From Williamsia sp. 1138 (lineage in GTDB: Bacteria; Actinomycetota; Actinomycetes; Mycobacteriales; Mycobacteriaceae): a stretch of DNA of 64,000 nucleotides. This document shows positions 51,885 to 57,503 of this stretch, in pieces. Each line of letters opens with the position of its first letter. The first letter of the stretch is position 1. The stretch covers positions 310,001-374,000 of the forward strand of contig NZ_MJEJ02000054.1 in assembly GCF_002095435.2 (NCBI RefSeq), written 5' to 3'. Under the pieces are notes generated by a model that did no database searches, was not told where the DNA came from, and saw only the letters and a program-made list of their open reading frames with translations. The position numbers and the translations under genes were made by a program.

Positions 51885-53357
51885 TCAGGTCTCCTTGCGA
51901 CCCCGCCAGATCCGTTCGAAGGGAAGCCTCCACGCGTGCGGAGCGATGAGTTGGTGAATCGCGTTCGGGCCCCACGAGCCCTGGTCGTAGCTTCGCACCG
52001 GCGGAGGACTCTCGAGCAGCGGAGCCGAGACCTCCCATAGCCTTTCGATGCCCTCTGCGGTGGTGAAGAGGGTGTGGTCGTTCTTCATCGCGTCGAGGAT
52101 CAATCGCTCGTAGGCCTCGAGGACGAGTCCGACCTGGTCGGTGTCCTGCATCGCGAACTGCAGACTCAGCTTGTCGAGTTTCATTCCTGGGCCGGGCTTC
52201 TTGCCGTAGAACGACAGCGACACCTTGAACGCGTCGGCAAGGTCGAAGGTCAGGTGATCCGGGCCATGTTGCCCGACACCGGATCCCTCCGGGAACATGC
52301 TCTTCGGTGGCTCGTGAAAGGCAATGGAGATGATGCGCTGGCCCTCGCCGAGGCTCTTGCCGGTACGCAGATAGAACGGCACACCTGCCCAACGCCAGTT
52401 GTCGATCTCGGCTTTGAGCGCGACGAATGTCTCTGTCTCCGACTCCGGGGCAACGCCGGGCTCGTCGCGGTAACCGGCGTACTGACCGCGTACCACGTTG
52501 TGCGGATCGAGCGGCCGCATCGAGCGGAAGACCTTGTTCTTCTCTTCACCGATGGGTCCAGGGGCCAACGCGGTCGGCGGTTCCATGGCGACGAACGCGA
52601 GAATCTGGAACAGGTGGGTCACCACCATGTCCCGGAAAGCGCCGGTCGACTCGTAGAAGTGTGACCGACCCTCCAGCGACAGCTTTTCCGGCACATCGAT
52701 CTGGATGTAGTCGATGAAGTTCCGGTTCCAGATCGGCTCGAACAGGCCGTTCGCGAACCGGAAGGCGAGAATGTTCTGCGCCGACTCCTTCCCGAGGAAG
52801 TGGTCGATGCGGAATATCTGTTCTTCTTTGAACCATTGGTGGATGGAGGCGTTGAGGGCCACTGCGCTGTCATGATCGGTGCCGAACGGCTTCTCCATGA
52901 TCACGCGTGATCGCTTCACGAGGTTGGCCTCGTGCAGCATCTCCAGAACCGCCATCGCGGCCTTGGGCGGGACACTCAGATAGTGCAGCATCCGGGCCTC
53001 GCTGCCGAGCACGTCGAGTTGCTCCCGCACCGCTGCGGCCAGCGCCTCGGCGCCCTCACCCTGCGGTACGTAGGTCAGGGTCGCACCGAACTCGGCGGCG
53101 GCCTCCGGTGTGAAAACCCGACTGGAGAACTCACTGCACGCCTTGACCCCGATTTCCCGGAATCCCTCGCTGTCCATGTCGTCGAGCGACGTTCCGACGA
53201 TGCGCATCGGCGGGGCGAGTTTCGACATGAACAGGTGGAACAGCCCAGGCAGGAGTTTGCGGCGCGCCAGATCGCCTGTCGCCCCGAACAACACGACGAC
53301 GTGCGGGGAGAGTTCCCGCTTCTCTTTTGCCCCGCGGGGCTCGATCACATCGGTCAC
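51885..53357 (-). CDS. zwf: Glucose-6-phosphate dehydrogenase
   Basis: 490 residues from GTG 53357. The NADP site is VVLFGATGDLARRKLLPGLF (21-40), and the active-site signature RIDHFLGK is at 183-190. It oxidises glucose-6-phosphate and yields NADPH. No pgl, gnd or opcA is adjacent, unlike the usual pentose-phosphate cluster; instead it follows an FMN reductase and a nitroreductase-like gene. This may be a second, specialised copy. It converges on the MFS gene. Confidence 0.92.
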   Translation of the reverse strand: MTDVIEPRGAKEKRELSPHVVVLFGATGDLARRKLLPGLFHLFMSKLAPPMRIVGTSLDDMDSEGFREIGVKACSEFSSRVFTPEAAAEFGATLTYVPQGEGAEALAAAVREQLDVLGSEARMLHYLSVPPKAAMAVLEMLHEANLVKRSRVIMEKPFGTDHDSAVALNASIHQWFKEEQIFRIDHFLGKESAQNILAFRFANGLFEPIWNRNFIDYIQIDVPEKLSLEGRSHFYESTGAFRDMVVTHLFQILAFVAMEPPTALAPGPIGEEKNKVFRSMRPLDPHNVVRGQYAGYRDEPGVAPESETETFVALKAEIDNWRWAGVPFYLRTGKSLGEGQRIISIAFHEPPKSMFPEGSGVGQHGPDHLTFDLADAFKVSLSFYGKKPGPGMKLDKLSLQFAMQDTDQVGLVLEAYERLILDAMKNDHTLFTTAEGIERLWEVSAPLLESPPPVRSYDQGSWGPNAIHQLIAPHAWRLPFERIWRGRKET

Positions 53358-53403
53358 ACCGTTGATCGTCCCACTTTCGCACCGTTCGGGCGCGACAACC
53401 GAA

Positions 53404-53931
53404 TCAGCCGACTGTGCGCGCCACGTTCGCGAGCGAGGCGAAGACCGCCGCGTACTCCGCAGCTGCCTTCTTGATGAAGTCATCGAGCTGCGGTAGATCG
53501 TCGATCACGAAGTACAGGCCCCGGCCGGGTATCGCTGCCCCCAGCTCGAGCAACAGCGGCGCGAGAGTCGTCTGCGGAGCCAGAGAGTGCGTCAGATCGC
53601 CGCCGGTGAACACCGGGATCGCCACCACACCTTTGAGGCCGTCGGTGCCGTACTGATCGAGAAACGCCTTCAGCAGGCCGGTGTATGACGCCTTGTAGGT
53701 AGGGGTGGCGAAGATGACCAGATGACTGGCCGCCACCGACGTCTTCGCAGCTGTGACCTTTTCCGATCCCCACTGGAACAACTCGTCGGCAAGATCGGCG
53801 AGTTCGATGACCTCGAGTTCGTAGGTCCCTTCACCGAGTAGGGCCGGGACCAGCGCCTCGGCCACGGTACGGGTCCGCGACTGCGGCTTCGGATTTCCTA
53901 CGACTACAGAGACCTTCACAGGGTCGGACAT
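53404..53931 (-). CDS. NADPH-dependent FMN reductase
   Basis: 175 residues. The flavodoxin-like fold is shown by VSVVVGNPKPQSRTRTVAEAL, and FATPTYKASYTGLLKAFLDQ is the SsuE/MsuE-type FMN signature. It makes free reduced FMN for partner enzymes such as two-component monooxygenases. It starts seven bases after the nitroreductase-like gene and is followed by zwf, a source of NADPH. Confidence 0.9.
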   Translation of the reverse strand: MSDPVKVSVVVGNPKPQSRTRTVAEALVPALLGEGTYELEVIELADLADELFQWGSEKVTAAKTSVAASHLVIFATPTYKASYTGLLKAFLDQYGTDGLKGVVAIPVFTGGDLTHSLAPQTTLAPLLLELGAAIPGRGLYFVIDDLPQLDDFIKKAAAEYAAVFASLANVARTVG

Positions 53932-53938
53932 CAGGTTG

Positions 53939-55222
53939 TCAGCTCCAGACTTCATCGTGGTGGATATGGGTCGGCAGATAGGCACCGGGCCCGAACTTCT
54001 GATCGTAGAAACCTCGGTCGAGGTTCTGCGCTTGCAGGTACATCAGTACATGCACGGTCGGAACGGTCCCGGGCAGCTTCCCGAACCGCTGGTAGATGTA
54101 CTCGGCCTGCAGGGTGACGAGCTCTTGAAGATCTTGTGCCGGAAGATATTCCGACCGCACCTTCGGCGAATCCGACCACGGTCCCGGGGTATCCGGATGT
54201 CCCGGGCCACCGGGGCCGAACTTGCGACGGTAGTACTTCTCGACGCCGGCGGTGACCGAGTCGACAAAGGGTGGCACGAGGGTCTCGAACACTCCCTCGA
54301 GCCCGGTCGCATTCGGGAACGGCCAGCGATCGTCGGTGTCGTAGGAGAATCCCAGACCCGGCGCCTTCGGGTCGCCACCGGCACCGAGGACACTGAGCCG
54401 GTCGAGGCCGTCGAACGTCCAGCCGCCCAGGCCGAGCCCCTGCAGGAGCAGTACCCCGGTGTTGGTGGCGGTCGCCAGCTCGGCGCTCGCCTCGGCCAGC
54501 GTGTACTGCTCGACAAAAGACAGCGGCACCGGATCGTCGAAATGCGCCATCGAGGAGAACTTCTCGATGCCGGGTACGGGGTTGTCGTGCACGTCGTCGT
54601 AGATGACATATCCGTTGGCGGCGAAGAAGTTGAGGTTGGCCACCAGATGCTCGGAGAGATCGGCGACCGGGAACGCCAACAGACTGCCGGGCCAATTCGC
54701 GATCCAGGTGTTGTGGCCCTCCATGTACGGTTCTTCTCGCGGCAGCACCAAGCGCTCTGACGACAGTTGCCGGTAGCTGTCGGCGGTCGAGGAGATCCAG
54801 GATTCGAGATCGGCCGGCCCTGCGGCCCGGTCCTGGTGCGGCGCCGCATCGCGCGAGCCGAAAAAGTAGGTTCCCGAGTCGTCGGTGAAGAACAACTGGC
54901 TCGTGTGGAAGGCCGCCGCCGACGGGAACGTCCTACCGCCCGCCGAACCCGGGTAGTTGGGCACGTTCGGCGCATACCCGGGGTGGCGCGTTATCCCGTA
55001 ATTCCAGCCCGTCACGCCGGCCAGAACACTGACGATCAATGCCCGCTCGACCTCCGTGATCGGGCGTGCAGGCTCGGTCGATTCGTAGGCCAGCGGCCCG
55101 TCCGGGATACTGCCACCGACCGGGAATCTCCGCGAACGGCGACCCATGATCGCGTCGATCAGTGGAAACCGCCCCAGTTCGGCCAGCGCCTTACGATGCT
55201 GCTCCGAGAGCTCCAACGTCAT
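53939..55222 (-). CDS. Uncharacterised large nitroreductase-like protein
   Basis: 427 residues. No family is certain. IDAIMGRRSRRFPVGG near residue 25 resembles the nitroreductase start (RRSxRxF, a flavin phosphate contact), ITEVERALIVSVLAGVTGWN fits the next helix, and ATATNTGVLLLQGLGLGGW resembles the nitroreductase segment with AxxNLLLxAxxLGLG. A C-terminal HIHHDEVW could bind metal. It is about twice the length of a usual nitroreductase. It overlaps (ATGA) a 41-codon ORF upstream and precedes an FMN reductase, which agrees with an FMN-using enzyme. Confidence 0.65.
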   Translation of the reverse strand: MTLELSEQHRKALAELGRFPLIDAIMGRRSRRFPVGGSIPDGPLAYESTEPARPITEVERALIVSVLAGVTGWNYGITRHPGYAPNVPNYPGSAGGRTFPSAAAFHTSQLFFTDDSGTYFFGSRDAAPHQDRAAGPADLESWISSTADSYRQLSSERLVLPREEPYMEGHNTWIANWPGSLLAFPVADLSEHLVANLNFFAANGYVIYDDVHDNPVPGIEKFSSMAHFDDPVPLSFVEQYTLAEASAELATATNTGVLLLQGLGLGGWTFDGLDRLSVLGAGGDPKAPGLGFSYDTDDRWPFPNATGLEGVFETLVPPFVDSVTAGVEKYYRRKFGPGGPGHPDTPGPWSDSPKVRSEYLPAQDLQELVTLQAEYIYQRFGKLPGTVPTVHVLMYLQAQNLDRGFYDQKFGPGAYLPTHIHHDEVWS

Positions 55223-55344
55223 TTCTGTATTCCCAGCACGAACTCGACGATATCCTCGGCGACCTGCGCGTGTGCCGCGAAGCGCGGGCCGCGGTGCGCC
55301 CACTTCGGGGGTTCCGTCGCAGAACTGGTCAGAACCAGCGGCAT
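55219..55344 (-). CDS. Small ORF, 41 aa, coupled to the nitroreductase-like gene
   Basis: 41 residues starting MPLVLTSSATEPPKWAHRGP and ending VAEDIVEFVLGIQK. GGGAG lies five bases before the ATG at 55344, and the stop overlaps the next gene's start as ATGA. Both points support translation. It may be a leader peptide or small subunit. The C-terminal helix looks like the end of a larger domain, so a decayed gene fragment is also possible. Confidence 0.5.
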   Translation of the reverse strand: MPLVLTSSATEPPKWAHRGPRFAAHAQVAEDIVEFVLGIQK

Positions 55345-55550
55345 CACAACTCCCAGGGCTCGATGGCATTCGACGGTCCTGTCGGCCGTGGGTGAGATTA
55401 CGACCCCGAGGCCGGGGTTGCCACGGGTTTGAGTCGCTGAGAGTTTTGGTCTTCCGTCTCACGCCATGTGACCCATTCGGGGGTTCGATGAAGCAAATCG
55501 GTGATGCCTTGTGCTTAAGGTAGGTCTACTTACGTTTGAAAGGGTGTGCC

Positions 55551-55832
55551 ATGACCTCCGAGCCGAACCCGGCGCCGAACGACCATTCCGGCGCGGGCGA
55601 TCACGAAAACGCGCTTGCTGTCGGCTCGAGGGTGGTGATCGAGCAGAACAGGTCCGGGAAGATCGTCGACGATTTCGGGCCTCCCGTCGAAGGTTCGGCC
55701 GTAGACCTGGGAGGAGGCCACGAGACCAAGCCCCGACGTTGGGCAGTGGCCCTCGATGACGGGGACCTCGTATTCGTGGACGACGATGGTCTCGAACCGG
55801 AAGGCCGCGGTCCCGCTACGCTCAAGGAGTGA
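55551..55832 (+). CDS. Small hypothetical protein before riboflavin kinase
   Basis: 93 residues. After a disordered start the core reads VGSRVVIEQNRSGKIVDDFG, with WAVALDDGDLVFVDDDGLEP later, suggesting a small beta barrel. GAAAGGG precedes ATG 55551. The GTGA at its end overlaps the riboflavin kinase start, so they are coupled. No family recognised with confidence. Confidence 0.7.
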   Translation: MTSEPNPAPNDHSGAGDHENALAVGSRVVIEQNRSGKIVDDFGPPVEGSAVDLGGGHETKPRRWAVALDDGDLVFVDDDGLEPEGRGPATLKE

Positions 55833-56263
55833 ACCTTCTCGGATACGCAGCGGGTGAGATCGTTCGTGGCGAGGGCCGCGGTGCCCCGATGGGATTTCCC
55901 ACCGCGAACATCGCCGCCGAAGACGAAAGCCGGATTCCTGAAGACGGCGTCTACTTCGGCTGGTTCACCCTGGCAGACGGCGACCCGCCCCGCGGCTCCC
56001 TGCACCCGGGCACCTGGCTGCCGACCCTCGTGTCGGTCGGTGAGAATCCGACCTTCGACGGTCGCAAGCGCACGGTGGAGGCCTACGTCATCGACTTCGA
56101 CGCGGATCTGTACGGCGCGAACGCGATCACCGAGCTCACCCACCTCGTACGCAAGCAAGAACAGTTCAACTCGATCGACGAACTGATCGTGGCGATGAAC
56201 GGCGACAAGGCCTCTGCGCGGGAGCTCATGTCGCGCTACCCCGCGCGACCGCAGCAGTCCTGA
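55829..56263 (+). CDS. Stand-alone riboflavin kinase domain protein
   Basis: 144 residues. GRGAPMGFPTANI and GENPTFDGRKRTVEAYVIDF are the flavokinase signature; PTAN binds nucleotide/Mg and the Glu of VEAY is the usual base. The enzyme phosphorylates riboflavin to FMN. Bacteria usually carry it fused to FAD synthetase (RibF, ~310 residues); here the adenylyltransferase half is absent. GTG start overlaps the preceding gene. Near an FMN reductase, it may serve local FMN supply. Confidence 0.85.
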   Translation: MNLLGYAAGEIVRGEGRGAPMGFPTANIAAEDESRIPEDGVYFGWFTLADGDPPRGSLHPGTWLPTLVSVGENPTFDGRKRTVEAYVIDFDADLYGANAITELTHLVRKQEQFNSIDELIVAMNGDKASARELMSRYPARPQQS

Positions 56264-56498
56264 CCCACCCGGTCATCCGCGGCGCGTTGCTGCACAATCC
56301 GGTACCGGGTCGGTTCTTGCCGACGAATTGGCCGCCGGCGCCACGTTGTGCCGCACTGCATTGCCCGCGCTGACACCTGCCGCGATCGCTCGTATCGCAC
56401 TCCAAAACTTCTGTACCGCTTGGCGGTTCTCTGTACCCATGCTTCGATCATCGAGCACGACTGGCGCCTCCAACAGTGGCACCAACGCCGCTGATCGA

Positions 56499-56504
56499 TA
56501 AGAT
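56499..56504 (+). promoter_or_regulatory. Possible -10 element of a leaderless glxA-type transcript
   Basis: TAAGAT lies six bases before the ATG of the regulator gene, which lacks a ribosome site. Transcription would then start at or next to the ATG. Confidence 0.35.
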
Positions 56505-56510
56505 AGTGAC

Positions 56511-57503
56511 ATGAGTGAAACCGACGATGCCGGGCCGCGACGAGTGGCCGTCCTCGCGTACGACGGGATGACCGCTTTCGAGATGGGGATTGCCGCGGAG
56601 ATCTTCGGCCTCTCGGAATTGTCTGATCTCTTCTGGCCGGGTGTCGGCCGGCCCTGGTACGACCTGCGGTTGTGCACCGAGACGCGGGAAAGAGTGCGCG
56701 TCGTGGGGGGCGCCACGCTGCGTACACCGCACGGCCTCAGCGAGCTTGCTTCCGCGCACACCGTCATCATCCCCAGTGTCGCGGATGTGCGCGCTCCCGT
56801 CTCAGCGCGACTCGTCGACGCCGTCCGGGAGGCTGCTGACCGCGGCGCCCGAGTCGTCTCCTTCTGCTCCGGCGCGTTCGTCCTCGCGGCCGCCGGCCTC
56901 CTCGACGGCAAACGGGCAACCACCCACTGGCGTTACACCACGATGCTCCAAGAGCGCTACCCTGCAGTCGATGTCGACCCGCGACCGCTCTACGTCGACG
57001 AGGGTTCGGTGTTGACGAGCGCCGGCTGCTCAGCCGGTCTCGACCTCTCGCTACACCTCGTCCGCTGCGACTACGGTCCTCAGATAGCGAACGATGTCGC
57101 CCGGAGCCTGGTGGCCGCGCCTCATCGGTCCGGGGGCCAGGCGCAGTACGTCGAGAGTCCGATACCTGCCCTCGACGGTGATACCGCCATCACCGACAGC
57201 ATGCATTGGGCTCTGGCGCATCTGGATTCGCCGATCAGCCTCGATGAGCTGGCCGACCGGGCAATGTTGTCCAGGCGCAGTTATCTGCGCCAGTTCACCA
57301 AGGCGACCGGCACCACCCCGATCAAATGGCTGATCGCGCGGCGCATCGACACCAGTCTGGAGCTGCTCGAGACCTCGGACCTCCCGGTCGAACGCATCGC
57401 AGGAATGGTCGGATTCGGTTCAGTCGTGACCTTCCGCCATCACTTCACCCGCATCATGAACACCTCACCCAGTGAGTATCGGAACACCTTCACCGCTGCC
57501 TGA
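56511..57503 (+). CDS. GlxA-family regulator (DJ-1/PfpI domain plus AraC HTH)
   Basis: 330 residues. The N-terminal DJ-1/PfpI-like domain begins RRVAVLAYDGMTAFEMGIAA and has its cysteine elbow in VVSFCSGAFVLAAAG. The C-terminal AraC part has SLDELADRAMLSRRSYLRQF and PVERIAGMVGFGSVVTFRHH. Such regulators often control amine or quaternary-amine catabolism. No obvious target adjoins it. Confidence 0.9.
   Translation: MSETDDAGPRRVAVLAYDGMTAFEMGIAAEIFGLSELSDLFWPGVGRPWYDLRLCTETRERVRVVGGATLRTPHGLSELASAHTVIIPSVADVRAPVSARLVDAVREAADRGARVVSFCSGAFVLAAAGLLDGKRATTHWRYTTMLQERYPAVDVDPRPLYVDEGSVLTSAGCSAGLDLSLHLVRCDYGPQIANDVARSLVAAPHRSGGQAQYVESPIPALDGDTAITDSMHWALAHLDSPISLDELADRAMLSRRSYLRQFTKATGTTPIKWLIARRIDTSLELLETSDLPVERIAGMVGFGSVVTFRHHFTRIMNTSPSEYRNTFTAA

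Follow-up and report, generated by a model that had tools for sequence, protein, structure and literature searches.

In a 64,000-nucleotide stretch of the Williamsia sp. 1138 genome (contig NZ_MJEJ02000054.1, positions 310,001 to 374,000 of the forward strand; hereafter the window), we find a gene for a 427-residue protein, NTR427, which profile comparison places as a remote member of the nitroreductase superfamily. Probably, NTR427 is a divergent oxidoreductase dependent on flavin mononucleotide (FMN), whose gene came together with one for an alpha/beta-hydrolase, the insertion point lying between an acetyltransferase gene and an FMN reductase gene. Judging from the searches made here, it represents a widespread protein family for which Pfam and NCBIfam hold no model. 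The first-pass annotation had described NTR427 as part of six genes around one divergent promoter, all serving flavin redox chemistry; this module rather appears to be local synteny within Williamsia.

Homology of NTR427 to nitroreductases

NTR427 falls below every Pfam and NCBIfam threshold, and the SagB model TIGR03605 is not matched. Homology to the nitroreductase family PF00881 was observed at the profile level, by hhalign, and covers the motif regions of both the N-terminal and the C-terminal part in their proper order. The comparison of a 66-row NTR427 family alignment, of which hhalign retained 57 rows, with a 66-row nitroreductase/SagB pool gave 93.4% (E 2.4e-7). The pool consists of 33 SagB and 33 Pfam domain rows; a protein at a contig edge (L265) was dropped from the Pfam half, and at least two proteins (L093/L248 and L095/L260) are present twice. 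When cut apart, residues 1-123 of NTR427 gave 90.8% against the pool (65.1% against the SagB half, 51.1% against the Pfam half) and residues 200-320 gave 63.0% (68.0% against the Pfam half), and both fall on the corresponding region of the nitroreductase profile in the correct order. None of 38 control alignments with the families of neighboring proteins exceeded 3.0%, and known members of the FDO subgroup, as a positive check, reached 96.7% against the same pool. In a search of 8,386 open reading frames (ORFs) with the family profile, five of the eight best matches with E above 1e-10 were nitroreductase/SagB ORFs (E 0.6-2). Because two regions match in order and above all controls, we take NTR427 to be a remote member of the superfamily, with a long inter-motif segment and a C-terminal part of its own.

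The motif regions are RRSRRF (residues 28-33), GRTFPSA (96-102) and GLGGW (264-268), which presumably bind FMN as motifs of this type do in the nitroreductase superfamily. Among 48 aligned NTR427 sequences (alignment A1, from which the broken or cut copies L072, L073, L075 and L077 were left out), 68 columns are invariant, including R28, R29, R31, R32, F33, G96, R97, S101 and the whole of GLGGW. According to hhalign, PF00881 and TIGR03605 share with NTR427 an RRSxR-like start, a PSA motif with a strand-like stretch after it and a GLG motif, in this order. NTR427 differs from them by about 160 residues between the second and third motifs and about 160 after the third.

Several comparisons weigh against this assignment. 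An earlier pool of 24 nitroreductase/SagB proteins, a smaller profile, gave a lower score of 66.2%; the SagB and Pfam halves alone gave 36.7% and 32.1%, and the 48-row A1 gave 43.8% against the 66-row pool. Residues 200-320 reached only 25.3% against the SagB half, the GLGG region ranks as a second alignment at 0.1% in the uncut comparison, and residues 300-427 have no match to the nitroreductase profile (0.2%). In the PDB, the A1 profile retrieved nothing but Cas8f chains at E 0.5-0.6 and no solved homolog, and the single NTR427 sequence gave weak matches (E 0.046-0.49) to three monoglyceride lipase sequences and one sulfurtransferase. A Pfam search with the 48 relatives found no significant match, with PF00881 in none of them even at E up to 10 and only four DUF families, in one to three members each (best E 0.019). 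The earlier label "nitroreductase-like" is upheld remotely, through two regions in order and above controls, and has no Pfam or NCBIfam match behind it; the profile searches once recommended yielded this remote match, and sequence searches of the PDB gave nothing meaningful.

YcaO is the cyclase partner of SagB-type dehydrogenases in the biosynthesis of ribosomally synthesized and post-translationally modified peptides (RiPPs), and it is absent among the 25 commonest of 151 families in the 101 nearest neighbors of NTR427. Separately, the cyanobacterial and Chloroflexota genomes of L037, L040, L043, L047 and L076 contain frames of 510-590 amino acids (aa) with two SagB-type matches each.

The FDO subgroup (Acg, TyzC) consists of single-chain nitroreductases (PMC10404671); it belongs to the same superfamily and is longer than typical single-domain members, as is NTR427. 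On this evidence, membership of NTR427 in FDO/Acg was rejected, since its profile gave 1.3% (E 0.04) against 22 NF047509 members (FDO, Acg/Rv3131; the partial L290-L292 dropped), a comparison that did not include TyzC itself.

Distribution and mobility of the family

A single scan of genome contigs identified 76 loci with relatives at 45-96% identity in Actinobacteria, Cyanobacteria, Chloroflexi, Bacillota, Bacteroidota, Proteobacteria, Planctomycetes, Nitrososphaeria and others. Plasmid records add Rhizobium, Rhodobacter, one haloarchaeon (41.6%) and remote relatives at 27-30%; any annotated feature on these plasmid-record relatives reads "hypothetical protein". Closer family members are 41-96% identical to the window protein, and the closest named ones are five Williamsia records (88-96%). 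A match was found in 13 of 198 genomes sampled across phyla, 29 of 301 sampled within the family and four of the nine genomes of the window's genus, the other five lacking it. In the NTR427 tree, betaproteobacterial and Hyphomicrobium proteins adjoin those of Brevibacillus and Ktedonobacteria. Given this patchy presence and the cross-phylum groupings, NTR427 is an accessory gene which probably moves between lineages.

Several of the copies L072, L073, L075 and L077 and those of genomes G272 and G401 look split or shortened, or are truncated where a contig ends; the G401 copy was seen as a short fragment with a stop, which fits a decaying accessory gene. Two remote relatives in Phyllobacterium/Rhizobium (L081, L082; 27-30% over about 200 residues) lie near genes annotated as "peroxidase family protein".

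A phage or defense role for the locus was rejected, as PHROGs and PADLOC gave no match, no phage record was found at E 0.01, and a single-protein IMG/VR scan, which reaches close relatives only, found no NTR427 relative. A literature search revealed no recognizable paper on this enzyme family, with thin coverage of subscription journals, so that one may exist elsewhere.

Gene content and deletions in the window

The features around NTR427 are listed below in window coordinates (dN/dS, ratio of nonsynonymous to synonymous substitution rates; L002, a sister locus).

51885-53357, minus strand: glucose-6-phosphate dehydrogenase (G6PDH), zwf-type (PF00479/PF02781; TIGR00871, 435 bits, cut-off 400.6)
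53404-53931, minus strand: NAD(P)H:FMN reductase-type flavoprotein, 176 aa (PF03358, 1.7e-22)
53939-55222, minus strand: NTR427, 427 aa, putative divergent nitroreductase-superfamily protein (hhalign, 48-row alignment, dN/dS)
55219-55344, minus strand: 41-aa ORF, remnant of an alpha/beta-hydrolase (Hydrolase_4) gene (DNA alignment to L002; PF12146 in L002)
55459-55465, no strand: deletion junction, the acetyltransferase gene of L002 missing in the window (alignment to L002)
55551-55832, plus strand: 93-aa protein, family unassigned by Pfam/NCBIfam (dN/dS 0.17-0.28; 3 of 95 NTR427 loci)
55829-56263, plus strand: riboflavin kinase domain-only protein, 144 aa (PF01687, 7.1e-33; 5a88, 1.9e-28)
56511-57503: AraC gene

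The ORF list agrees with the six ORFs as first annotated, with one 7-bp gap and two 4-bp overlaps. The 41-aa ORF overlaps NTR427 by 4 bp (ATGA), the FMN reductase gene starts 7 bp past NTR427, and zwf follows another 46 bp on. On the plus arm, the 93-aa ORF is coupled to the kinase ORF by a 4-bp overlap, as had been proposed. Pfam likewise confirmed the identities of the FMN reductase (FMN_red, 1.7e-22), G6PDH (G6PD_C, 1e-89; G6PD_N, 9.3e-45) and riboflavin kinase (Flavokinase, 7.1e-33). For NTR427, the 41-aa and the 93-aa proteins, Pfam and NCBIfam gave no family above cut-off; PHROGs and PADLOC gave none for the 93-aa protein, which occurs only in Williamsia among the loci examined.

Compared with the three sister loci L002, L018 and L003, dN/dS was 0.076-0.131 for NTR427, 0.058-0.090 for the FMN reductase, 0.003-0.021 for G6PDH, 0.11-0.20 for the kinase and 0.17-0.28 for the 93-aa protein. 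All module genes other than the 41-aa ORF, which lay outside this set, are thus under purifying selection.

In L002, the kinase and 93-aa genes are followed on one strand by an N-acetyltransferase gene (PF00797; L002 6213-7082), and the other strand carries an alpha/beta-hydrolase gene (PF12146), NTR427, FMN reductase and G6PDH. Window 56296-55466 aligns with L002 5381-6211, window 55458-55310 with L002 7142-7289, and window 55272-54923 with L002 7951-8300. Two deletions relative to L002 are observed, one of the acetyltransferase gene and one of the middle of the hydrolase gene, of which 661 bp in the sister gene correspond to 37 bp in the window. As the 41-aa ORF retains the start and end of the hydrolase gene and aligns to both, it is a deletion scar; the idea of a conserved small partner, or of a RiPP-like peptide, was rejected on this ground, and no similar small peptide stood out upstream of NTR427 in the relatives listed. 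The reported coupling of this ORF to NTR427 exists as a 4-bp overlap, of a hydrolase remnant and not of a conserved gene. The divergent arms are present and are the product of deletion, the supposed promoter region being a junction left by the two deletions; scanning 53200-56500 with a simple consensus gave no sigma-70-like site, where 0.5 would be expected by chance.

The hydrolase gene is reduced to a 129-codon remnant ORF in L018 and was not detected in L003 by DNA alignment and similarity search of the locus. With remnants in the window and L018 and none detected in L003, the gene is decaying in the Williamsia group.

Neighboring genes across lineages

The neighborhood of NTR427 was compared in 95 loci, 81 plus 14 from a further search; the window is not counted, L169-L171, L173, L174 and L176 were left out as repeats, and L008 and L172 look like one place. 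Genes in the relative loci were called by a simple script, and the neighbor survey covered 52 chosen loci, leaving out genes shorter than 75 aa, longer than 900 aa or poorly scored. Two records named Williamsia (L004, L005) are grouped into another genus of the family in the genome sample.

An L002-type hydrolase gene, recognized by similarity to that of L002, lies directly upstream of NTR427 on the same strand in 10 of the 95 loci (L002 included; L011 and L018 shortened), which belong to Williamsia, Rhodococcus/Rhodococcoides and two further unnamed genera. An Abhydrolase-type gene, as identified by Pfam, stands in the same place in the betaproteobacterial L062 and in Nocardiopsis L066. Loci L208-L211, from genomes of the window's genus that lack NTR427, have the FMN reductase and acetyltransferase genes as divergent neighbors with no called gene between. 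Because of these pairs, hydrolase and NTR427 were most likely inserted between the two genes in Williamsia, a direction of change that we infer.

On the other side, NTR427 could have been lost from the other Williamsia instead. Abhydrolase_1 occurs in 7 of the 101 nearest neighbors against 2 of 84 more distant genes, an excess that is suggestive only, alpha/beta hydrolases being common. Furthermore, three of the four Williamsia loci compared (window, L018, L003) have a truncated hydrolase gene or none, so that it is not needed in cis.

The first-pass proposal was a functional flavin module, in which FMN made by the kinase is reduced by the FMN reductase, with the local G6PDH as the source of NADPH, and then serves NTR427; in our view it is doubtful. 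It is consistent with the order NTR427, FMN reductase, G6PDH in four Williamsia loci including the window, with an extra zwf and a kinase-only second riboflavin kinase (RFK) gene, and with purifying selection on all these genes. The kinase-only gene is found in all four genus genomes with NTR427 and in one of the five without, which is weak evidence, as the four may be one clade. However, the FMN reductase is adjacent to NTR427 in just 5 of 95 loci (L002-L005, L018), and G6PDH, the kinase and the 93-aa gene are near it in three each (L002, L003, L018), all in records named Williamsia; outside such records the gene order is not kept. FMN_red accounts for 2 of the 101 nearest neighbors, and the pattern of a two-component system, with an FMN reductase kept beside its flavin user across lineages, was not seen in the 95 loci. 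The FMN reductase is present in all nine genomes of the genus (78-97% identity in the eight others), and L207, where NTR427 is absent, shows G6PDH, FMN reductase and kinase as neighbors, for which reason the flavin genes appear to be a local set independent of it. Nitroreductases, moreover, carry bound FMN of their own, to which NAD(P)H donates hydride. The idea of six genes for one purpose fails on these counts.

The kinase aligns to PF01687 nearly completely (residues 8-133 to model positions 8-123 of 124) and to 5a88 with the PTAN stretch aligned, which identifies it as a riboflavin kinase; it differs from RibF in consisting of the kinase domain only. The other RFK copy, a 336-aa frame, is on contig C51. 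The genome carries two zwf-type genes besides that of this G6PDH, on C52 and C34, and two of the three exceed the family cut-off. The window copy is outscored within the genome, yet reaches 98.4-99.8% identity with its counterparts in the three sister loci. The 176-aa protein shares PF03358 with SsuE/CE1759-type FMN reductases, falls below the NCBIfam cut-offs for SsuE/MsuE/CE1759, and has its best PDB matches in 3k1y and 4ltd.

It is unlikely that NTR427 is an accessory gene among accidental neighbors, with no functional link to the flavin genes or the hydrolase. Its scattered contexts elsewhere and its presence in 29 of the 301 family-sample genomes would fit; the 7-bp gap, the ATGA overlap and a hydrolase gene that in several genera lies immediately upstream, frequently with an overlap, argue against it. 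Handling of nitroarenes and arylamines, with NTR427 reducing nitroaromatics and an arylamine N-acetyltransferase acetylating the amines, is quite unlikely. The PF00797 gene is beside NTR427 in L002, has relatives (84-96%) in L003 and L018 and is divergent to NTR427 in Mycobacterium L010, but it is lost in the window, is near NTR427 in 5 of 95 loci only, and is paired with the FMN reductase without NTR427 in L208-L211. Convergent motifs on a non-flavin fold, as the Pfam and PDB results above might suggest, are highly improbable in light of the two regions that match in order well above controls.

Regulator genes were also seen near NTR427. In alphaproteobacterial L067, L068, L069, L070, L078 and L079, a divergent AraC-type gene (29-33% to the window AraC) is beside it; the window AraC gene as a dedicated regulator was rejected, as in Williamsia it is also present without NTR427 (L209-L211). 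The divergent neighbor in actinobacterial L179 and L180 resembles an HxlR-type regulator, and HxlR accounts for 2 of 101 neighbors.

In Mycolicibacter loci (L019-L028, L030, L031, L033, L034 and similar ones), NTR427 is preceded by an aminotransferase gene, matched to PF00155 in L019, and a small haemophore-like one, and members of clusters 5, 6 and 7 often face it no more than a few genes away. In L013, clusters 5 and 6 are represented by a flavin reductase and a BphC-type dioxygenase, an arrangement which we take to resemble the hsa steroid-ring region.

Proposed activity and implications

Under the preferred reading, an FMN-dependent oxidoreductase acquired with a hydrolase, NTR427 would most likely bind its own FMN via the RRSRRF, GRTFPSA and GLGGW regions and exchange hydride between flavin N5 and a small-molecule substrate, perhaps a lipid. 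A hydrolase as partner points to an ester or a lipid; we infer both the substrate and the direction of the reaction. On this view, the hydrolase gene and NTR427 would have entered Williamsia together, at the point between the divergent genes for N-acetyltransferase and FMN reductase. Later, deletions in the window cut the hydrolase down to 41 codons and removed the acetyltransferase, which left the kinase pair opposite.

SagB enzymes have oxidase/dehydrogenase chemistry, and Tat (twin-arginine translocation) carries proteins that are already folded and loaded with cofactor out to a compartment that lacks NAD(P)H. Tat-like leaders were found on 10 of 111 NTR427 family ORFs, six of them alphaproteobacterial. 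Because some relatives have such leaders, a SagB/FDO-like dehydrogenase or oxidase, passing electrons to O2 or quinone, seems likelier than an enzyme fed by the neighboring FMN reductase. It speaks against this that the leaders were called by pattern alone and that Williamsia NTR427 is not flagged.

As a comparable case, the FDO TyzC is reported to use O2 in desaturating an N-acyl amino acid (PMC10404671). A more speculative idea, to which we give little weight, is that NTR427 and the hydrolase form an undescribed two-gene lipid-modifying system, in which the hydrolase frees an acyl or ester substrate for desaturation or oxidation by NTR427, which would be an FMN oxidase of a new class present in bacteria and archaea.

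The locus also serves as a warning: through deletions within a genus, a divergent operon that looks neat can arise, along with a small ORF that is spurious. The NTR427 family itself spans many bacterial phyla and archaea, with no Pfam, NCBIfam or PDB match here. Its link to the nitroreductase superfamily would make it testable by standard flavin biochemistry and may open a branch with unknown chemistry.

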